Part shown: one piece after another, positions 2,605-25,646 of the stretch | Position numbering within the stretch: position 1 is the first letter of the stretch | Layout of the letters: each line of letters starts with the position of its first letter | From: a virus | DNA length: 25,646 nucleotides | Strand: one strand, 5' to 3' | Virus record (IMG/VR): IMGVR_UViG_3300044949_001278 | Span: 1-25,646 of that record | Notes under the pieces: model-generated | What the model was told of the DNA's origin: nothing | Database searches by the model: none | The model's input: the letters and a program-made list of their open reading frames with translations, nothing else | Program-made: the position numbers and the translations under genes

Positions 2605-3447
2605 ATGCTACTCATGCTTTTATCGGATAAAGAAAGTATTAGTGGCTCCAGTCTTATTCCAGGTGAAGGTAATTCATTAATATCTGGAATAATCGCTGCA
2701 AAAAGCTCAACTTCGGTAAATGAAATTAATGCGTCGGCTACTTGTTTAGTAAATGCAACTATAATATATAATACAAATGCATTAAATGCAGAAGGAACTA
2801 GTTCCACCTCTTCCAACATCTCTACAATTTCTGTATCAAATATAGTAACCGCTATTGGCCTTTCATCAGTAAATTCATTTGCTACTTCAACTTCGCAGAT
2901 AAACGTAATAAGTTCAAATGGTTTTGGATTCGCAAACGCAATAGGTTCTTTAATAAGTTCAACAAACATATTACTTGTAAATGGAACATCGTCTGTTCTT
3001 GGAATTGGTTCATTTATAGGTGGAACGACTCTTGTATTAAATCTGGTAGCAGCCAATGGAACTTCTATAGTAAATTCTAACATTGCGCAAATAAACAATA
3101 TAAGTTTAAATTCTAATGGATCTTCATTTATAGAATCCTTATTTACAATAGTTTCTGAATGCAATCCATATTCTGCTAATGGTACTTCAGAAGTTAGTAG
3201 TTTATTAGAAAAAATTATTCTACTTTATACCGATGTTAGTTCTGGAAATAGTGTTGTTTTATCATATTTTACAGCAAATGCCGCATTTAATATTTCTTGC
3301 AATGGTCTTTCTGAAACCTTAGCCTTTGGCTATGGGTTAACTATAAAACAAGAAATGCTCTTTTATTACGAACCAGGAACGTTAGCATTCTACGAACCAG
3401 TTTCAATATATTTTCACGAACCAAAAATTAAAGTCTTTTACGAATAA
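2605..3447 (+). CDS. Ser/Asn/Ile-rich low-complexity structural protein with C-terminal FYEP repeats
   Basis: 280 aa, ATG at 2605 with GGGAG about 9 bases upstream. Residues 10-240 are almost entirely S, N, I, T, V, A and G, with loosely repeated units like NGTSSV and SSTNI, suggesting a beta-solenoid or fibrous shaft. The last ~30 residues change character: about four tandem copies of an aromatic motif (FYYEP, FYEP, FHEP, FYE) spaced 8-9 residues apart. There are no Lys/Arg for long stretches. It is not recognised as a known family. The neighbours are small beta proteins and the tail fibre, so a fibre or decoration role is inferred. A 192-codon antisense frame over the same DNA is judged to be a shadow because all neighbours are on the + strand. 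Confidence 0.6.
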   Translation: MLLMLLSDKESISGSSLIPGEGNSLISGIIAAKSSTSVNEINASATCLVNATIIYNTNALNAEGTSSTSSNISTISVSNIVTAIGLSSVNSFATSTSQINVISSNGFGFANAIGSLISSTNILLVNGTSSVLGIGSFIGGTTLVLNLVAANGTSIVNSNIAQINNISLNSNGSSFIESLFTIVSECNPYSANGTSEVSSLLEKIILLYTDVSSGNSVVLSYFTANAAFNISCNGLSETLAFGYGLTIKQEMLFYYEPGTLAFYEPVSIYFHEPKIKVFYE

Positions 3448-4184: not shown

Positions 4185-6443
4185 ATGGCGAATGAAGAAG
4201 TTTTTGTAACTGTACAAAATGTTGTACCTACACCAATAACCGTATCTGTAACAGAAACGGTTCAAACACCAGTGTCTATATCCGTCGGTGGCGCCGTTCC
4301 TGGAGAGGCAGGGATGCTTAATGGAACCACTCTTGCGGCAAACGTCGTTACGTCATCTCTCACAAGCGTTGGTACGTTAACCTCTTTAAACGTTACTGGG
4401 ACAATAACTGCTGGTACATTCTCTGGTGCTCATTCTGGTACATTAAGTGGTAATGCGTCAACGGCAACAACACTCCAAACTGCTAGAAGCATAAACGGAA
4501 CAACTTTTAATGGTTCCGGCGACATTACGACGGCCAACTGGGGAACATCGCGAAATATAACGATTGGTAGCACCACTAAAGCTGTTAATGGGTCGGGTAA
4601 CGTATTTTGGACAACCGCTGAAATTGGTGCTGAAGATAGAGCTCCGTTGGGAGTTCCTCGATTCAATCTAGGAAACCCAACCGTTCGCGAAATGGCTTTA
4701 TTTGACTCACAGAGTAATAACAAAACCGAGTTTCTTCCAATCACAAGTATTTTTGTAGAATCGTCAACAAATGGTACAACCTGGACAACATTTTCTGTTA
4801 CAGATCAACAAAAACGTAGGCTTGTTGGTGGAGATTTTGAAACGTCTATAGTTATTCCTAATGGTACGCCATTTTTTAGAATAAGATTAAGACTACCATC
4901 ACCGCAGTACGTATGGGTTGAGCAGCTCTACTCATATTTCTCGACAAATGGTCATAGTTGGGGAGTTCGTGTTTTTAGAAAACACGATAGTGATTCTGGT
5001 TGGACGCAACACACATCATCAACTGCCACTGGAAACGGGTGGCCAGGTCATCTGTTTCTTCCTTTTGCTACCCCAATTCAGTGGCGAAACGACGGGAATG
5101 CAGTCCAGGGAACACACGATCACGAAATCTATATTCTGTTCACGCCGGTTTGGAACCCGATTTACCCATCAAATAATATCAACCTAACTAAAATTCAGTT
5201 GTGGGGTGGGTATCCTGCCGGCCGACGTAATCTTTATACAACCGACGATCTTCAAAACGCAACGTTTCCAGCAACAGTAACTGCTACAACTTTTTCCGGA
5301 GCTCATTCTGGCTCAGGCGCTTCTCTTACCAACATTCCAAACTCGGCTACGACGGCTTCCAGTTCAAACATAGGCAGCGCTATCGTGGCTCGTGATGCGA
5401 GTGGGAACTTCACGACATCAACAGTAACCGCAACTACTTTCACTGGTGCCTTAAGCGGAAACGCGACAACAGCAACAACTCTACAAACAGCTCGTTTAAT
5501 AAACGGCGTCTCGTTCAACGGCTCGGCTGATGTTACAATCCCGATGACTGGCGCTGCCGCAGCAGGATCATTGACTGGTACAACTCTAGCCGCAAACGTT
5601 GTTACGTCGTCTTTAACAAGCGTTGGTACGTTAACGTCTTTAACTGTTGCCGGAACAATAACTGCTACAACTTTTTCCGGAGCTCATTCTGGCTCAGGCG
5701 CTTCTCTTACCAACATTCCAAACTCGGCTACGACAGCAACCAGCGCAAACACCGCCAGCGCTATCGTGGCTCGTGATGCAAGTGGGAACTTCACGGCAGG
5801 AACGGTAACCGCTACCTTAAGCGGAAACGCCTCAACGGCAACTACACTGCAAACTGCTAGAACAATTAATGGTGTTTCATTTAATGGTTCAGCCAACATA
5901 ACTGTTGCTGCTGCAGCTGGAACTTTGACCGGGTCGGCATTGCCTAATACCGTAACCGCATCTTCACTTACCAGCGTCGGTATTTTAACCTCTTTAGATG
6001 TATCTGGTCTGGGAATAACTTTTAGTGGCGCAACGGTCGTTGGTACAGCAAACCAAATGGGTCTTCGATGGGCAGCTGGATTCTCTTCAATTATGGGAAC
6101 CGTCGATAACAGCGTATATGCAACTTTAGGAACAGTATCAGACCGTAGGCTTAAGCGAAATATTTTAGACATTGAAGACGCAATAGAAAACATCAAGCAA
6201 CTTCGACCAATAACATACCATGGTGTCGAATTTGATGGGTCTGATCCAGACGGGCCAGAACTTCTTGGTTTCATCGCAGATGAAGTCTCTGAGGTATACC
6301 CCTCTTTGGTTATGGGAGAGGCGACAGAGACAACTTATCAATCCGTTGATTATGCAAGAATGGTCGTTCTCTGCGTTAAGGCAATTCAACAATTATTGAC
6401 AAAGATAGAAGATTTAAATGACAGGGTAGATCTTCTCGTCTAA
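4185..6443 (+). CDS. Tail fibre with S74 intramolecular chaperone domain
   Basis: 752 aa. Residues ~40-120 and ~385-640 carry fibre-shaft repeats (SSLTSVGTLTSL, TLSGNASTATTLQTAR, SAIVARDASGNFT). Between them, about residues 150-360, is a non-repetitive aromatic-rich domain (STNGTTWTTFSV, FFRIRLRLPSPQYVW) that could be a binding module. The C-terminus from Ser652 (SDRRLKRNI, then LRPITYHG and LLGFIADEVSEVYP) is the peptidase S74 / endosialidase chaperone domain, which trimerises the fibre and normally cuts itself off just before the conserved Ser-Asp. So the mature fibre is probably ~651 residues. The start ATG 4185 follows the previous stop by one base. It probably contacts the host surface; the receptor is unknown. 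Confidence 0.88.
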   Translation: MANEEVFVTVQNVVPTPITVSVTETVQTPVSISVGGAVPGEAGMLNGTTLAANVVTSSLTSVGTLTSLNVTGTITAGTFSGAHSGTLSGNASTATTLQTARSINGTTFNGSGDITTANWGTSRNITIGSTTKAVNGSGNVFWTTAEIGAEDRAPLGVPRFNLGNPTVREMALFDSQSNNKTEFLPITSIFVESSTNGTTWTTFSVTDQQKRRLVGGDFETSIVIPNGTPFFRIRLRLPSPQYVWVEQLYSYFSTNGHSWGVRVFRKHDSDSGWTQHTSSTATGNGWPGHLFLPFATPIQWRNDGNAVQGTHDHEIYILFTPVWNPIYPSNNINLTKIQLWGGYPAGRRNLYTTDDLQNATFPATVTATTFSGAHSGSGASLTNIPNSATTASSSNIGSAIVARDASGNFTTSTVTATTFTGALSGNATTATTLQTARLINGVSFNGSADVTIPMTGAAAAGSLTGTTLAANVVTSSLTSVGTLTSLTVAGTITATTFSGAHSGSGASLTNIPNSATTATSANTASAIVARDASGNFTAGTVTATLSGNASTATTLQTARTINGVSFNGSANITVAAAAGTLTGSALPNTVTASSLTSVGILTSLDVSGLGITFSGATVVGTANQMGLRWAAGFSSIMGTVDNSVYATLGTVSDRRLKRNILDIEDAIENIKQLRPITYHGVEFDGSDPDGPELLGFIADEVSEVYPSLVMGEATETTYQSVDYARMVVLCVKAIQQLLTKIEDLNDRVDLLV
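5278..5353 (+). repeat. 76-bp exact direct repeat, copy 1 (within tail fibre)
   Basis: These 76 bases are identical to 5659-5734, 381 bases (127 codons) downstream in the same frame. They encode part of the shaft unit FSGAHSGSGASLTNIP. Similarity continues beyond the exact block with scattered changes through SAIVARDASGNFT. Confidence 0.9.
5659..5734 (+). repeat. 76-bp exact direct repeat, copy 2 (within tail fibre)
   Basis: Second copy of the 76-base block at 5278-5353. The in-frame spacing of 381 bases means recombination between copies would remove or add exactly 127 residues without breaking the fibre reading frame. Confidence 0.9.
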
Positions 6444-7017: not shown

Positions 7018-7794
7018 ATGGCAAAGTTATCTTGGGATCAAACCGGAGTAAATGACTACGAGGGTGGCGTTGACAGGGGCGTAATTTATTCCTCTGATGG
7101 TCGAGTTTTTTCTTGGAGCGGTCTTGTTTCGGTAACCGAAAACTTCAACGTCACATCGAACCCGGTGTACTTTGACGGACAAAAAATTTCTGACTTCACA
7201 ACCCCCGGGGCCTTTTCCGGAAACATTACTGCAATAACATATCCAGAAATTCTTAATGATTTAATTGGGCTTGATTCTTTAAAACCTGGTGTTTACTTAA
7301 CCGGTCAGCGACCCAAAACGTTCGGGTTTTCTTATCGGACAAAGGTCGGTAATGATGGAGCATATAAAATTCATATCGTCTACAATGCGACCGCAATTCC
7401 GTCCGAAAGAAATTACGAATCTACCAATAGTAGTGTCTCTTTTGTAAACTTTTCTTGGGAGATACACACGGTGTCTGAAGAGGTCGATGGGTTTTTACCA
7501 ACCTCTTACTTGATTATTGATTCTAGAAAAACAAACCCGGCGCTACTAGAGCGAATAGAAACAATACTTTATGGTGGCGATACACCAAATCCATATTTAC
7601 CAAGCTTTTCGGATCTTATTGCTCTTATTTCTGGGTGGTCGATTGTCGAAATTATTGACAATGGCGATGGTACTTGGACTGCGACGACGCAGTATGATGG
7701 ATATATTACAATGCTTGAGGATGGAAAGTTCCGACTAGACAATGTCGATGCTACATTTATCAATGCTACCACTTATACAATTCAAACAAACTAG
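7018..7794 (+). CDS. Major tail (tube) protein
   Basis: 258 aa, ATG 7018 after TTTGGAGAG. The N-terminus KLSWDQTGVNDYEGGVDRG followed by VIYSSDG, then WSGLVSVTE, PVYFDGQKIS and ITAITYPEIL, matches the usual order in siphoviral major tail proteins of the WDQTG type, whose hexamers stack to form the tail tube. FGFSYRTKVG and YKIHIVYNATA fit the same family. The last ~55 residues (IIDNGDGTWTATTQYDGYI) look like a small added beta domain on the tube surface. It lies upstream of the tape measure gene as expected, though with the collar fibre and the gp10-like gene in between. Confidence 0.85.
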   Translation: MAKLSWDQTGVNDYEGGVDRGVIYSSDGRVFSWSGLVSVTENFNVTSNPVYFDGQKISDFTTPGAFSGNITAITYPEILNDLIGLDSLKPGVYLTGQRPKTFGFSYRTKVGNDGAYKIHIVYNATAIPSERNYESTNSSVSFVNFSWEIHTVSEEVDGFLPTSYLIIDSRKTNPALLERIETILYGGDTPNPYLPSFSDLIALISGWSIVEIIDNGDGTWTATTQYDGYITMLEDGKFRLDNVDATFINATTYTIQTN

Positions 7795-7811
7795 TTATCT
7801 AAGGAGATTTA

Positions 7812-8756
7812 ATGACTAGCGTAACGGCTTATACCGCTCAAAGAATGAAAGCCATCGAGGATGGGGCTGTTATCAGCGGAGCAGTTGTTGGCGATAATCT
7901 TATTTTAACAAAGTTTGATTCTACGACAATTAATGCTGGAAACGTTCGTGGCCCTCAAGGGGTTCAGGGGGTTCCAGGAGAAGTTAGCGCCGCTCAACTT
8001 AACCAAACCGTTCCTGCTGGCGTTATAGCAATATGGCCATTTGCTACAATTCCAACTGGTTGGTTGGAGCTTAACGGTCAAGCCATCGCAAACGCGCATA
8101 CTGCTGTCCCAGCTCTTTTTGCTGCTGCGCCATTAGGTTGGAAGGTGTCTAACACCCTGAACCTTCCAGATATGAGAGGGCGTTTTCCGGTTGGTCAACA
8201 TACAACCGACACGGCATTTGATACGCTTCAAGAAACTGGCGGAACGAAAGACGCTGTTGTTGTAACACACACTCATTCTATTCCCTCACATACACACGCA
8301 ATGCCTGCGCATACGCACTCTTATACAGGAAATAGTGGGGGCACACACACCCACGGGTTGTCTATTGTTTCCACGGGTCAAAACACTGCTTCTGATTTCG
8401 TTACAAGGCAGACCTCTTTTATAAATGGGGGTTTTGCTAGCGGTGTTATGACCAACCCTTGGACCGCATATAACCCTCCGGCTTTATCTATGAACAGCGG
8501 ATTGGCTGCACCAGTGGCAGGCATGGCACTTAGTTGGGAAAGCACTCATTTTCACACTGTAACCGGAGATACTAATAGTACAGGCTCTAGTCACTCTCAT
8601 ACGGCTACCGTAGATGGTGGATCTAGTGGATCTACTCAGGTTATAGTAAACCAGTCCGGTGGGTTATCAACCGACAATCCGACTTCTCATGTCAGCGGCA
8701 CGAACCAGAACCTTCCGCCATACATGGTTATGCGTTTTATAATCCGAGCATACTAA
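7812..8756 (+). CDS. Tail collar-domain fibre with short collagen-like segment
   Basis: 314 aa, ATG 7812 after TAAGGAGA. Residues 1-46 (RMKAIEDG, VGDNLILTKFD, INAGNVRGP) match the N-terminal anchoring segment often seen in minor tail proteins of actinophages. A short Gly-X-Y run (GPQGVQGVPG, residues 47-56) follows. Residues ~68-130 form a phage tail collar domain (IWPFATIPTGWLELNGQ, LNLPDMRGRFPVGQ). Downstream are clustered HTH, HTHA and HTHS motifs (residues ~153-181) of the type that bind metal ions in T4 short-fibre relatives, and the C-terminal NLPPYMVMRFIIRA strand. It is probably a trimeric receptor-contact fibre. Its position between tail tube and tape measure is unusual. Confidence 0.85.
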   Translation: MTSVTAYTAQRMKAIEDGAVISGAVVGDNLILTKFDSTTINAGNVRGPQGVQGVPGEVSAAQLNQTVPAGVIAIWPFATIPTGWLELNGQAIANAHTAVPALFAAAPLGWKVSNTLNLPDMRGRFPVGQHTTDTAFDTLQETGGTKDAVVVTHTHSIPSHTHAMPAHTHSYTGNSGGTHTHGLSIVSTGQNTASDFVTRQTSFINGGFASGVMTNPWTAYNPPALSMNSGLAAPVAGMALSWESTHFHTVTGDTNSTGSSHSHTATVDGGSSGSTQVIVNQSGGLSTDNPTSHVSGTNQNLPPYMVMRFIIRAY

Positions 8757-8773
8757 AAAATCAAAGGAACTTC

Positions 8774-9157
8774 ATGTTCAAACTATCAAGTTCCGGAGAT
8801 TTTAAAAATACAGATGCTTTTTTAAAAACTTTATCAAATCAAAAAAGTCTATATTCTGACCTTAAACTTTATGGTGAAATGGGCGTTGCTGCCCTTTCTA
8901 AAGCTACGCCAATTGATTCTAGCGAAACCGCTAAATCTTGGGGTTATCGAATTCTTAAGGGTCGAAATGAATCCCCAGGAATTGCATGGTATAACACCAA
9001 TGAAGAAGATGGCGTTAACATCGCAGTTTTAATTCAATACGGCCATGGTACTGGAACTGGTGGTTATGTTGCTGGCCGAAATTATATTAACCCGGCCATT
9101 AGACCAATCTTTGATATGATAGCAGATTCGATTTGGAAGAAGGTGACAAGTGCCTAG
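8774..9157 (+). CDS. HK97-gp10-like tail completion / head-tail joining protein
   Basis: 127 aa, ATG 8774 after AAAGGAAC. The second half, VLIQYGHGTGTGGYVAGR followed by NYINPAIRPIFDMIAD, is the characteristic end of HK97 gp10-like proteins of Gram-positive phages, which occur among head-tail connector and tail completion proteins. The early residues (SKATPIDSSETAKSWGY) fit that family as well. Its 3' end overlaps the tape measure start by 8 bases, so translation of the two is probably coupled. Placing it directly before the tape measure rather than with the connector genes is less usual. Confidence 0.65.
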   Translation: MFKLSSSGDFKNTDAFLKTLSNQKSLYSDLKLYGEMGVAALSKATPIDSSETAKSWGYRILKGRNESPGIAWYNTNEEDGVNIAVLIQYGHGTGTGGYVAGRNYINPAIRPIFDMIADSIWKKVTSA

Positions 9158-17676: not shown

Positions 17677-17793
17677 ATGTCACGTCGTAGGTATGGATTA
17701 TTTAGCTTTCTTTTCGACCTATTCATGTTTTGCATTACAGCTGGATTTTGGCTTATTTGGATTTTTGTTCGTGAGATGCGGAGGCGTGGGTGA
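17677..17793 (+). CDS. 38-aa membrane miniprotein
   Basis: ATG 17677, preceded by AAAGGA about 10 bases upstream. The product has a basic start (MSRRRYG), one hydrophobic span (LFSFLFDLFMFCITAGFWLI then WIFV) and a basic end (REMRRRG). Very similar miniproteins, with an xRxYG start, FLxDLFM and WLIWIFVREMRRR, recur in actinophage genomes, so it is a real gene despite its size. Its stop overlaps the next gene's start (GTGA), indicating coupled translation with the DUF6353 protein. Function is unknown. Confidence 0.78.
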   Translation: MSRRRYGLFSFLFDLFMFCITAGFWLIWIFVREMRRRG

Positions 17794-18518
17794 AACCCGT
17801 TATATTTAAGCAAATCGAAAAGCTAGTAAGTCAAAACTCATCGTCAATTCTTACCGCATTAGGTATAAGTGGTGGTATAACCACGACCGTTCTTGCGGCA
17901 AAAGCAGGATATAAATCTGCTTTGATCATTGAAGCGTATGAACACGAATATGGATTAATCGTCACAAAGCGTGAAAAGGCTGAACTAGTTTGGAAATATT
18001 ATATTCCAACGGCTTTATCTGGTGGACTTAGTGTTGCTAGCATAATAGCATCAACAAGAATTAGTTCACGAAAGACTGCCGCAATAACCGCTGCATATTC
18101 ACTTAGTGAGAAAGCCTTTTTAGAGTACAGAGACAAAGTTACAGAAACTCTTGGTGATAAAAAAGAGAAAAAAATAAGAGACGAAATTGCCCAAGACCGG
18201 GTTAAAACGAACCCACCAAGTCAAGTAGTTATTGGTAGTGGTCCGGTTTTGTGTTGTGACTTATTCACTGGTCGATACTTCAACAGTGATATGGAAGCTC
18301 TGCGTAAAGCACAAAACGATTTGAATGCATATTTAATGCGTCATGATCGTGCAACAATCAGTCATTTCTATGACTTGATTGGGCTTCCTCATACGTCATA
18401 TTCTTGGGATGTTGGTTGGACATCGGATAAACTTTTAGAACTTGACTTCTCGACGGTTCTTTCTGAAGATAAGAAGCCGTGTCTTGCTTTCGACTTTAAT
18501 TATACCAAAGTTCTTTAG
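17790..18518 (+). CDS. DUF6353 family phage protein, paralogue 1
   Basis: 242 aa from GTG 17790, overlapping the stop of the 38-aa gene. The N-terminus is KLVSQNSSSILTALGISGG followed by ITTTVLAAKAGYKSAL, with two hydrophobic segments (residues ~18-38 and ~72-95). A signature ITAAYSLSEKAFLEYRDKV and LGDKKEKKIRDE occupy residues ~105-135, and the C-terminal part has FYDLIGLPHTSYSWDVGWTS. The same signature occurs in the gene at 20920, so the two are paralogues. This fits the DUF6353 family of phage membrane-associated proteins, whose function is not known. A third gene (20277) shares the GLP...GWTS segment. Transcription is probably from P-D. Confidence 0.78.
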   Translation: MKPVIFKQIEKLVSQNSSSILTALGISGGITTTVLAAKAGYKSALIIEAYEHEYGLIVTKREKAELVWKYYIPTALSGGLSVASIIASTRISSRKTAAITAAYSLSEKAFLEYRDKVTETLGDKKEKKIRDEIAQDRVKTNPPSQVVIGSGPVLCCDLFTGRYFNSDMEALRKAQNDLNAYLMRHDRATISHFYDLIGLPHTSYSWDVGWTSDKLLELDFSTVLSEDKKPCLAFDFNYTKVL

Positions 18519-20276: not shown

Positions 20277-20894
20277 ATGGACTTTCCACCGAACAGTCAT
20301 AAGTCAAAAGAAGAGCAAAATCCGGAAAAAAAGAAAGAGCTTACAAAAATTGTTTCCGGCGAAGTAGTGACCAAGAAAAAGCCACTCAAACAGCGAATCA
20401 AGGCTATATTTGTTGGCGGAGAGTTTAAGAACGCTGCCGCTTATATTGCAATTGACGTGCTAATTCCGGCGGCTCGTAATATGGTTGTAGATGCCACTAC
20501 AAAGGGTATCGAACGTCTTATTTACGGCGAGTCATTACAGCGTACCAGACAGAACGACTACAACCGCTCACGCGTTTCGTACAATAGTCCGATTGACCGA
20601 AATCGTCAGCGTGGTGTTATGTTGCCTGATCAACCGCCATATCACGGAAGAAGCTCAAGAAACAGTAATGAGATAATCGTCAATTCTCGAAAGGATGCCG
20701 AACTTGTTCTTTCGACAATTGCCGACATCATCGAGACCTATGATGTAGCTTCTGTTGCCGATCTAAACGAACTTGTTGGTCTTCCGAGTACGCATATTGA
20801 TAACAAGTGGGGCTGGACCTCAATCCGACATGCCGATCTTCGTCAGGTACGCGAAGGTTGGTTAATTGATCTTCCTCCGGCAAAGCCGATCTGA
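20277..20894 (+). CDS. Conserved phage protein with C-terminal GLP-GWTS module (205 aa)
   Basis: ATG 20277 after AAAGGAAAA; an upstream in-frame ATG at 20250 lies within the previous gene and has no binding site. Residues 1-45 are Lys-rich, followed by RIKAIFVGGEFKNAAAYIA, a moderately hydrophobic helix (DVLIPAARNMVVDATT) and IERLIYGES, a pattern widespread in Gram-positive phages. A low-complexity Arg/Asn/Ser linker covers residues ~88-130. The C-terminal ~70 residues (ADLNELVGLPSTHIDNKWG, WTSIRHADLRQVREGWLIDL) resemble the C-terminal part of the DUF6353 proteins nearby. Function is unknown. Confidence 0.65.
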   Translation: MDFPPNSHKSKEEQNPEKKKELTKIVSGEVVTKKKPLKQRIKAIFVGGEFKNAAAYIAIDVLIPAARNMVVDATTKGIERLIYGESLQRTRQNDYNRSRVSYNSPIDRNRQRGVMLPDQPPYHGRSSRNSNEIIVNSRKDAELVLSTIADIIETYDVASVADLNELVGLPSTHIDNKWGWTSIRHADLRQVREGWLIDLPPAKPI

Positions 20895-20919
20895 TACTCC
20901 ATATTTTGAAAGGAACGAT

Positions 20920-21780
20920 ATGAAAATTCAAATTCCGATTCAGGTTACACAAAAACTTGCTCGACAGGCCTTAATTCTTCGAAAGCATTCTCCTAGGATT
21001 ATGTTTGTCGGTGGTATTGGTGGCGTTATAGTAAGTACTGTGTTAGCCTGCAAAGCAACGCTAAAGCTTAGCGACGTCGTTGATGAAGCAGAGACGACAA
21101 TCTTTGGTATTCGAAACGATCTTAAGGATAGTCCTGGGTATCGTAAGGATCTAGCATACGTCTATGGCAAAACTGCCTATGACGTAGTGAAGCTTTACAG
21201 TCCTGCAATTGTCGTTGGTGGAATATCGATCGGTGCTTTGACCGGCTCGCATGTTACTCTCACACGACGAAATGCTGCCGTCACTGCCGCATATGCTGCT
21301 ATGGCTAAGTCTTTCGATGAATACCGAGACCGCGTACGCAGAGACCTAGGTGACGATCGAGAGCGAGAGCTTCGACACGCAGTTGAGCTTGTTGATATTC
21401 CAGACAAAAATGGAAAGTCGAAGAAGAGCGCGGTTGCCGATCCTAACAGAATGTCGCCATATTCTCGCTTTTTCGACGAGTACTCCCCAAGCTGGCAGAA
21501 GAACCCCGAACTAAACAAGGTATTTCTTCTTGCCCAGCAGAACTACGCAAACCATCTACTTAGGGCTCGCGGACATGTATTCTTGAACGAGGTGTATGAT
21601 ATGCTTGGTTTAGAGAGGTGTTCCGCTGGCCAAATGGTTGGTTGGGTTATAAGCGAAACGGGCGATAACTTTATCGACTTTGGAATGTTCGAAGTTCGTA
21701 ATGCCGACTTTGTTAACAACGTTGAGCGTAGCATTCTACTGGACTTTAACGTCGACGGCGTTATTTACGATAAGATTTAG
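20920..21780 (+). CDS. DUF6353 family phage protein, paralogue 2
   Basis: 286 aa from ATG 20920 (binding site GAAAGGAAC); an upstream ATG at 20866 lies in the previous gene. RKHSPRIMFVGGIGGVIVST, VLACKATLKLSDVVDEAE and a second hydrophobic stretch (SPAIVVGGISIGALTGSHV) are followed by the family signature RRNAAVTAAYAAMAKSFDEY and RRDLGDDRERELR. The C-terminal part has YANHLLRARGHVFLNEVYDM and LLDFNVDG. Compared with paralogue 1 it is about 44 residues longer, mostly through an insert around residues 165-195. It probably associates with the membrane. No function is known. Confidence 0.78.
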   Translation: MKIQIPIQVTQKLARQALILRKHSPRIMFVGGIGGVIVSTVLACKATLKLSDVVDEAETTIFGIRNDLKDSPGYRKDLAYVYGKTAYDVVKLYSPAIVVGGISIGALTGSHVTLTRRNAAVTAAYAAMAKSFDEYRDRVRRDLGDDRERELRHAVELVDIPDKNGKSKKSAVADPNRMSPYSRFFDEYSPSWQKNPELNKVFLLAQQNYANHLLRARGHVFLNEVYDMLGLERCSAGQMVGWVISETGDNFIDFGMFEVRNADFVNNVERSILLDFNVDGVIYDKI

Positions 21781-22586: not shown

Positions 22587-23117
22587 ATGTCGGAGCCAAT
22601 TGAAGATGCATATTTCAACTGGCTGTACCAAAAAGTAGCTTCCGTTGGAGTTAGAACTCCTTCAACATCATACTACACACTATTAAGGGAGTTGCACTCA
22701 ACAGAATTCATATGGCTTATTTCTGGCGACGATAATCGAGCTGAAGATGGTATAGAGCTTAGAAAAGAGTTCTTAATAAACACATCTTATGAATACGACT
22801 ATTCATGGTTAGGCCTCCCGTGTTCCGTTTTAGAAATGCTCATAGCCTTTTCTCGCAGAGCAGAGTTTGACACAGACTTTAGCGAAAGAGAATGGTTTTG
22901 GATGTTTTTAGACAATCTAGAGCTATCCGAATTAAACGATACAGTTCTTGGTATACCGGGAATTGTAGACTCTGTACTAAATACATTTATTTGGAGAACT
23001 TATGATTCTAACGGACACGGGGGGCTTTTCCCAACGGAAAGTTTCGAAAACGACCAAAGAAAAGTTGAAATATTTTACCAGTGGTGTAACTGGGTTTTTG
23101 AAAATGATTTACTCTAA
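22587..23117 (+). CDS. Conserved phage protein, unknown (176 aa)
   Basis: ATG 22587, three bases after the previous stop with only a weak binding site, so probably translated by coupling. Features include YFNWLYQKVAS, YTLLRELHSTEFIWLISGDD followed by NRAEDGIELRKEF, GLPCSVLEMLIAFSRRAEFD, REWFWMFLDNL, RTYDSNGHGGLFPT and a Trp-rich end (VEIFYQWCNWVFEND). It is soluble, acidic and aromatic. The family is widespread in siphophages of Gram-positive hosts directly upstream of the replication gene, as here. No enzymatic motif is recognised and the function is unknown. Confidence 0.7.
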   Translation: MSEPIEDAYFNWLYQKVASVGVRTPSTSYYTLLRELHSTEFIWLISGDDNRAEDGIELRKEFLINTSYEYDYSWLGLPCSVLEMLIAFSRRAEFDTDFSEREWFWMFLDNLELSELNDTVLGIPGIVDSVLNTFIWRTYDSNGHGGLFPTESFENDQRKVEIFYQWCNWVFENDLL

Positions 23118-23128
23118 AAGGGGGTTAC

Positions 23129-25646
23129 ATGGACTTTTTTAAAATTAACATATCAGTACCAAAGTCGGGACCCCCAGTCGTAACCCCTAATTGGACAATT
23201 GATAGGTCAAAAGACTTAATGATTCGTGGTCGTTCATTTTATGCTATATGGGACGAAGAGAAGAATTTATGGTCTAGGGATGAATATGATGTTCCTAGAT
23301 TAGTTGATGCCAAACTTTATGAGTATGCAAAAAATAACGGATCCGAAGTAATAGTCAAGGATCTTCGTTCGTTCCAAACTAATAGTTGGGCAACGTTCAG
23401 AAAATTTATTCAGAATGTTAGTGATAACAGCCATGAGCTGGATTCGAAGCTTATATTTGCTAACACAGAAGTAAAGAAGACTGACTACGCAAGCAAGAGA
23501 CTTCCATATTCTTTAGAGCCGGGAACGTGTGATGCTTGGCAAGAGCTTTTAAGCGTTCTATATTCTGAGGACGAGAGAGATAAGATTGAGTGGGCTATTG
23601 GTTCGGTTATATCTGGGGACTCAAAGAATCTACAAAAGTTCTTTGTGTTCTATGGTTCTGCCGGAACTGGAAAGTCAACTATACTCAACATAATACAAAA
23701 AATGTTCGTTGGGTATGTAGCAACTTTTGATGCAAAAGCACTTGGTAGTAACAACAATGCCTTTGCAACGGAGGTCTTTCGGTCTAACCCGCTCGTTGCC
23801 ATCCAACACGATGGTGATCTTTCTCGAATCGAGGATAACACCAAGCTTAACTCAATTGTCTCTCACGAAGAGATGACGATGAATGAAAAGTACAAGCCAA
23901 GTTATTCTGCCCACATCAATGCCATATTGTTCATGGGAACTAATCAACCAGTTAAAATTAGCGACGCTAAGTCTGGTATAATTCGCAGGCTTGTGGATAT
24001 TCACCCAACAGGTGCTAAGATCGAAAACGATCGCTATAACACTCTAATGAACCAGGTTGATTTTGAGCTGGGTGCAATAGCATATCGGTGTCTACAACGA
24101 TATAAAGAGCTTGGTAAAAAGTACTATAATTCATATCGTCCTCTCGAGATGATGCTTCAGACAGACGTTTTCTACAACTTCATAGAGAGCGTGTTCGACA
24201 TATTTAAGAAGCAGGATGGCGTAACGTTAAAACAGGCTTACAGTTTGTACAAAGAGTTCTGCGTGGAAAGCGGCATCGAGAAGATGCTACCTCAATACAA
24301 AGTTCGAGAAGAACTAAGGAACTATTTCGAAAAGTTCGAGGATCGTGCTATGATTGATGGCGTATCAGTTCGAAGCTATTATTCTGGCTTCAAAGATCTT
24401 ATTCCACCTAGCCCAAATGTTAGGGATGAGGATTACAAACTCGACTTTAGTTCTGAGAACTCATATCTTGACCGTATTCTATCGGATATGCCTGCCCAAT
24501 ACGCAAAAGCAAGTGGGTTTCCCGGTCGTAAATGGGAAGACGTACAAACAAAGCTCTCTGACTTAAACACATCGAAGCTTCATTTTGTAAAGGTACCCGA
24601 AAATCATATTGTAATTGATTTCGATTTAGTCGACGAAAACGGAGAGAAAGATCTTAATCGAAATATAGAAGAAGCGTCAAAATGGCCTCCAACTTATGCT
24701 GAACTTAGTAAAAGCGGAAAGGGCATCCACCTCCACTATCTATATTCTGGAGACGTGTCTAAGCTGTCGTCCATATTTGACATTGGTATCGAAGTAAAAA
24801 CTTTGTTAGGTGACGCTTCGCTAAGACGACAACTCACGAAGTGTAATATTCTAGAAATTGCCACTCTTACGAGCGGGTTGCCCATTAAGGAAAAGCCCAT
24901 GATTGATACCAAAACCATTAAAAGCGAAAAGACGCTTCGGGACTTAATCGATAGGAACCTCCGTAAAGAGATTCATCCCGGAACAAAACCGTCAATCGAC
25001 TTCATCCATAAGATACTAGACGAAGCATACGATTCTGGAATGTCTTATAACGTTGAAGATCTTCGTCCTGTTATGATTTCTTTCGCAGCAAAGAGCACGA
25101 ACCAATCGGCGCAAGCTCTAAAGATTGTCAAAACAATGAAGTTCTGCAGCAAAGATGCAATGAAGACTTCGGACGATGAGTCAAAGCCAATTGTGTTCTT
25201 TGACGTCGAGGTATATCCCAACTTGTTTGTTGTTTGTTGGAAGTACGAGGGTGATGACAACGTAGTTAAAATGGTTAACCCCTCACCTTCTGATATAGAG
25301 CCTCTTTTCGGAATGCGTCTCGTTGGGTTCAACAACCGTCGGTATGACAATCATATTCTTTATGCTAGATTCCTTGGGTACTCTAATGAAGAACTCCATA
25401 TTTTGAGCCAAAAGATAATCGCTAATAACGATAAGGTTCTATTTGGAGAGGCATATAATCTTTCTTATGCTGATATTTACGACTTCAGCTCTAAGAAACA
25501 GGGTCTTAAGAAGTTTGAAATTGAGCTCGGTCTTCATCACATGGAAATGGATCACCCTTGGGATGAACCGGTTCCTGAATCAAAGTGGCCAAAAGTAATT
25601 GACTACTGCGTTAATGACGTCATCGCGACTGAAGCCGTGTTCAAAG
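23129..25646 (+). CDS. Helicase-primase-exonuclease (probable polymerase) fusion, 3' end outside window
   Basis: Open from ATG 23129 (preceded by AAAAGGGGG) to the window end: 839 codons without a stop. Residues ~140-300 are a superfamily 3 helicase of the D5/P4 primase-helicase class: Walker A GSAGTGKST at 176-184, a VAIQHDGD segment near 222, and the sensor-like FMGTNQPVKI near 270. Residues ~470-590 look like an archaeo-eukaryotic primase (PrimPol) core: DFD at 497-499, SGKGIHLHY at 529-537, GIEVKTLLG then LRRQLTKCN. From residue ~687 a DnaQ-type 3'-5' exonuclease follows: FFDVEVYPN with D692/E694, FNNRRYDNH near 735-742, and DYCVNDV near 825-831. The exonuclease style (DVEVYPN) is that of family A phage polymerases, so a polymerase domain likely follows. 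The order helicase-primase-exonuclease is reversed from common primase-helicase proteins. Confidence 0.85.
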   Translation, partial: MDFFKINISVPKSGPPVVTPNWTIDRSKDLMIRGRSFYAIWDEEKNLWSRDEYDVPRLVDAKLYEYAKNNGSEVIVKDLRSFQTNSWATFRKFIQNVSDNSHELDSKLIFANTEVKKTDYASKRLPYSLEPGTCDAWQELLSVLYSEDERDKIEWAIGSVISGDSKNLQKFFVFYGSAGTGKSTILNIIQKMFVGYVATFDAKALGSNNNAFATEVFRSNPLVAIQHDGDLSRIEDNTKLNSIVSHEEMTMNEKYKPSYSAHINAILFMGTNQPVKISDAKSGIIRRLVDIHPTGAKIENDRYNTLMNQVDFELGAIAYRCLQRYKELGKKYYNSYRPLEMMLQTDVFYNFIESVFDIFKKQDGVTLKQAYSLYKEFCVESGIEKMLPQYKVREELRNYFEKFEDRAMIDGVSVRSYYSGFKDLIPPSPNVRDEDYKLDFSSENSYLDRILSDMPAQYAKASGFPGRKWEDVQTKLSDLNTSKLHFVKVPENHIVIDFDLVDENGEKDLNRNIEEASKWPPTYAELSKSGKGIHLHYLYSGDVSKLSSIFDIGIEVKTLLGDASLRRQLTKCNILEIATLTSGLPIKEKPMIDTKTIKSEKTLRDLIDRNLRKEIHPGTKPSIDFIHKILDEAYDSGMSYNVEDLRPVMISFAAKSTNQSAQALKIVKTMKFCSKDAMKTSDDESKPIVFFDVEVYPNLFVVCWKYEGDDNVVKMVNPSPSDIEPLFGMRLVGFNNRRYDNHILYARFLGYSNEELHILSQKIIANNDKVLFGEAYNLSYADIYDFSSKKQGLKKFEIELGLHHMEMDHPWDEPVPESKWPKVIDYCVNDVIATEAVFK

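Follow-up and report, generated by a model that had tools for sequence, protein, structure and literature searches.

The window, meaning the whole stretch of DNA that was analysed (25646 nt), is the complete virus record IMGVR_UViG_3300044949_001278, and a nucleotide search with it found no match among cultured phages. It carries tail and holin genes and a block of unknown genes that leads up to a long open frame at its right end (Table 1). This frame begins with an ATG, contains no stop and is still open at the contig end, and as the window is the complete virus record, the gene to which it belongs is truncated by the end of the record. The frame matches phrog_4210, annotated as "DNA polymerase", with residues 1-839 aligned to positions 1-873 of 1304 (1301 bits). 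Compared by tblastn with GP55 of lactococcal phage 1706, a replicase purified by Zhang et al. in 2025 (PMC12205980), its product is 38.3% identical over 98% of the length (E 6e-179). The sequence AAAAGGGGG lies directly 5′ of the ATG at 23129, and in the alignment the starts of the homologs coincide with this position, at MDFY/VDFY. A chance frame or a wrongly chosen start was ruled out by the full-length homology and the conserved start.

The gene for a phrog_4678 protein ends 11 nt before the replicase start. Nearly all replicase loci with enough flanking sequence have an upstream homolog in the same orientation, 106 tblastn hits being obtained among the replicase loci, of which 107 have at least 700 nt upstream. 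Further from the replicase, the + strand frames at 17790-18518 and 20866-21780 are paralogues of the DUF6353/phrog_2152 type (26% identical, E 6e-16). Of 94 loci, 76 have a DUF6353 homolog in the 3 kb before the replicase, and among the 61 loci whose upstream flank reaches 5.9 kb or more, 29 were counted as having two copies. At the left end of the window, two + strand frames (9-2420, 803 aa, and 2605-3447, 280 aa) gave no Pfam match; in PHROGs the larger had no match and the smaller one marginal match of unknown function. No homolog of either was found in the loci that were fetched.

Table 1. Features of the replicase gene and its upstream neighbour (window positions)
Feature	Position	Strand	Basis
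176-aa protein, phrog_4678, linked neighbour outside the replicase	22587..23117	+	E 1.4e-56
HelPrimPolB-type replicase gene, 5′ two thirds (839 aa)	23129..25645	+	open frame, phrog_4210, GP55 homology
N-terminal alpha/beta domain ahead of the ATPase, residues 1-134	23129..23530	+	conserved in relatives; predicted structure
SF3 helicase ATPase core, residues 174-287 (Pfam DUF5906)	23648..23989	+	E 6.8e-12, above Pfam cut-off
Walker A GSAGTGKS, residues 176-183	23654..23677	+	K182 = GP55 K189
Poxvirus D5-like C-terminal helicase part, residues 346-406, weak	24164..24346	+	Pfam PF03288, E 0.0023, below cut-off
AEP (PriS-like) primase domain, about residues 440-590	24446..24898	+	hhalign to Prim-Pol phage proteins
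AEP motif I, D497-F-D499	24617..24625	+	both D in 71/71; D499 = GP55 D509
AEP motif II, KSGKGIHLH (528-536)	24710..24736	+	H534, H536 in 71/71
AEP motif III, IEVK (554-557)	24788..24799	+	E555 invariant; Prim-Pol proteins have D there
Alpha-helical domain (aHD), about residues 598-670	24920..25138	+	model helices and conservation
3′-5′ proofreading exonuclease subdomain of PolB, residue 686 to contig end	25184..25645	+	Exo motifs

Helicase, primase and helical domains

The frame joins an SF3 helicase, an AEP domain and a DEDDy exonuclease in one chain. The residues named in the first-pass annotation of this DNA (Walker A G176...GK182-S183, DFD 497-499, KSGKGIHLHY 528-537, D692/E694, D740 and D830) are all where it had placed them. 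In the alignment with GP55, the residues K189, D509, Y655, F667, D712 and E714 of that protein correspond to K182, D499, Y640, F652, D692 and E694 of the window protein.

The protein opens with an alpha/beta domain which matched no library family over residues 1-134, and for which the predicted model has pLDDT values mostly of 81-93. These residues fall inside the stretch that the GP55 work assigns to the helicase part (GP55 1-439). The SF3 helicase proposed in the first-pass annotation is borne out by the DUF5906 match of the ATPase core. The Walker A lysine K182 is identical in all 71 aligned sequences, and mutation of its GP55 counterpart abolishes unwinding (PMC12205980). The weak D5-like match further along is shared by 33 of 45 aligned sequences, with a best E-value of 5.2e-5.

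An AEP-like primase had been proposed behind the helicase. Here the Pfam Prim-Pol match is weak, being obtained with 15 of 45 sequences (best E 0.019), and as the primase was the shakiest of the domain assignments, a family profile of residues 440-595 was built. It was compared by hhalign with a profile of seven independent Prim-Pol phage proteins, the first of which, Burro gp2, lies above the Pfam Prim-Pol cut-off. The comparison upheld the proposal with a probability of 95.1% (E 3.2e-8), and it pairs DFD with DID, SKSGKGIHLHY with SKSGTGYHLFY, and IEVK with VDIR (window family and Prim-Pol proteins, respectively). As a control, the polymerase profile scored 0.1% against the same Prim-Pol profile. 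A search of solved structures with the AEP profile found no primase.

The helical domain that follows consists, in the predicted model, of helices at residues 600-611, 622-635, 643-654 and 660-668, and its place matches that of the aHD of GP55. Its residue Y640 is kept in 68 of 71 sequences and F652 in all 71; the two equivalents in GP55 are required for priming (PMC12205980).

The small size of the AEP-like domain, the glutamate in place of aspartate in motif III and the fact that no PriL or helix-bundle partner domain was recognised would fit a decayed, non-priming remnant in a phage that primes its DNA in another way. Against this, the DxD and both motif II histidines are invariant in all 71 sequences, as is E555 in the alignment, and the tyrosine and phenylalanine of the helical domain are retained. 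Moreover, GP55, which has the same motifs, does prime, and with the change D509A it is described as primase-deficient (PMC12205980). Such a remnant is very improbable, and an archaeo-eukaryotic primase (AEP) followed by its helical domain is the preferred reading.

Exonuclease, polymerase family and continuity of the chain

All three exonuclease motifs are present in the window protein, namely ExoI (D692/E694), ExoII (D740) and ExoIII (Y826-x3-D830), and the four acidic residues are identical in 71 of 71 sequences. The DEDD exonuclease of the first-pass annotation stands. It is not a separate unit of the DnaQ type: the exonuclease is the proofreading part of a PolB, as the fold match of exonuclease and polymerase together and the GP55 work (PMC12205980) both indicate.

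The same annotation expected the chain to run on into a family A polymerase. A polymerase does follow in the relatives, where the roughly 400 aa missing from the window protein are a family B polymerase by motifs, profile and structure. Beyond the point at which the contig ends, the relatives continue into DVASMHP, KIVINIVYG and KTDS, PolB motifs A, B and C, and every complete relative has an aspartate at the position of the GP55 polymerase residue D949. As Pfam alone was convincing for neither the AEP nor the PolB part (DNA_pol_B gave E 0.0045, below the cut-off, in Gordonia phage Pherobrine), profile-profile and structure comparisons were used. The C-terminal profile of the relatives matched E. 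coli Pol II (E 2e-7), and also Pol alpha and KOD, with no family A match. An AlphaFold2 model of residues 661-1249 of the relative L001 (pLDDT 88.8, pTM 0.82) had family B polymerases as all of its top 50 PDB matches, with a best E-value of 5.7e-16.

That the chain of this phage should nevertheless continue into a family A enzyme has in its favour the presence of a DEDD exonuclease, as in family A enzymes, and nothing else. The relatives scanned gave no DNA_pol_A match, their profile and fold matches and their motifs are all of family B, and GP55, at 38% identity, is a characterised PolB (PMC12205980), which makes a family A continuation extremely improbable. For the relatives, family A was excluded by motifs, profile and fold. 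The DNA_pol_A scan of the window was likewise empty; the window ends before the polymerase part of the gene.

In all complete relatives MotifC of the polymerase reads I/V-K-T-D-S (L001 residues 1060-1064). The first aspartate of the usual DTD is replaced by lysine in all 70 sequences that reach this motif, in agreement with the divergent MotifC reported for the HelPrimPolB group (PMC7544198). GP55 also has VKTDS, without the first catalytic aspartate, yet polymerises well (PMC12205980).

By tblastn, 274 phage records match the window protein, 253 of them with at least 80% query coverage. Matches in cultured phages are mostly to phages of actinobacteria (Arthrobacter, Gordonia, Streptomyces, Rhodococcus and Curtobacterium), with Lactococcus and others also represented, and are frequently annotated as "DNA primase/polymerase". 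In line with the first-pass impression that similar large proteins occur in metagenomic phages, matches were obtained with 80 IMG/VR loci, and the ones that were aligned share 55-75% identity with the window protein where the two overlap. Bacterial genomes and MAGs, whose titles point mostly to Firmicutes, gave about 33 convincing loci with the same chain.

The contig stops at residue 839, and the frame might end soon after the exonuclease, with the polymerase as a separate gene. Two relatives lend this some colour, L011 with an in-frame TAG at codon 914 and L096 with an insert of about 1.2 kb near residue 897. On the other hand, the 69 complete IMG/VR relatives are uninterrupted single ORFs of about 1240-1380 aa, the nearest (L001-L003 and L069) included, and in L011 the homology resumes in frame past the TAG. 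A stop behind the exonuclease with a separate polymerase gene, the arrangement that had been named as speaking against a single polypeptide, was found in none of these 69. Such a split is highly improbable in this phage, and the missing end of the window protein presumably resembles that of its relatives, in one chain.

The L011 replicase, whose match begins at 5177, has the single TAG and then a normal end; the TAG may be a sequencing error, a mutation or recoding. In L096, open stretches at about 7697-8890 resemble by eye a BRO-type protein and an HNH endonuclease, and the insert in the replicase is possibly an intron or other mobile insert.

With a probability of roughly 96%, the gene encodes a HelPrimPolB replicase, the core of a phage replisome in a single chain, composed of an SF3 helicase, an AEP primase, a helical domain accessory to the primase and a PolB with its own exonuclease.

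Proposed working of the replicase and its neighbour

The activities of the window protein can be proposed by homology to GP55. The N-terminal helicase module would dimerise the protein and unwind DNA, for which GP55 uses UTP or dTTP. The AEP and helical domains would make short RNA primers at loosely specified sites, which the C-terminal PolB would extend while proofreading and displacing the strand ahead. Within a dimer, primers made by one subunit may be handed to the polymerase of its partner.

The phrog_4678 protein might be a replisome partner, such as a loader, an origin binder or a single-strand binder, needed by most HelPrimPolB replicases; this suggestion is tentative and rather unlikely to be correct. 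No phrog_4678 homolog was found by tblastn in phage 1706, unlike in the window, and if the suggestion were true, such a partner could not have been seen in the GP55 work.

Comparison with known replicases

The first-pass annotation held the functional layout to be little studied, which is contradicted by the literature. The HelPrimPolB group was named by Kazlauskas et al. in 2020 as family B polymerases of an EpsilonN-like clade (PMC7544198), the helicase-primase-PolB fusion having been first reported in an earlier paper (ref. 3 of PMC7544198). In this group, as in the window protein and its relatives, an SF3 helicase and a PrimPol lie N-terminal to PolB; its divergent MotifC compares with the K-T-D-S of the window's relatives, in which the first Asp is missing. 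No difference of substance was found between the group and the window protein, the copy in the window being truncated by the contig end.

For GP55, four activities (helicase, primase, exonuclease and polymerase) were shown in 2025. Its unwinding depends on UTP/dTTP, its RNA priming has 5′-CCAAC-3′ as a strong site, and proofreading exonuclease, PolB extension and de novo DNA synthesis were described; the protein dimerises via its helicase domain, a new helical domain is needed for priming, and over 1000 homologs were counted (PMC12205980). The window protein has the same domain order, and the catalytic and helical-domain residues that were checked inside the contig are all kept. GP55 carries an insertion near its C-terminus, absent from the other sequences aligned with it. 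As the family has been both named and biochemically studied, the window protein is one more member and not novel in kind, and alone it adds one truncated sequence to a characterised family.

The primase-first primase-helicases, such as P4 alpha, NrS-1 PrimPol and ORF904, share AEP and SF3 helicase modules with the window protein, but in these the primase precedes the helicase and there is no fused PolB. P4 was matched by the window protein in the helicase part only.

The nearest known homologs are the "DNA primase/polymerase" proteins of Gordonia, Arthrobacter, Streptomyces and Curtobacterium phages and gp072 of Rhodococcus phage ReqiPepy6, the nearest being 59-61% identical over the shared 839 aa. 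Their annotation usually omits the helicase and exonuclease, and their upstream gene neighbourhood is similar to that of the window where checked. Most cultured relatives in the phage collection searched are far closer to the window protein than GP55 is, and these actinophage relatives could show whether the unusual traits of GP55, such as its UTP/dTTP-driven unwinding and the exchange of the customary accessory domain of the primase for another, are common to the whole family.
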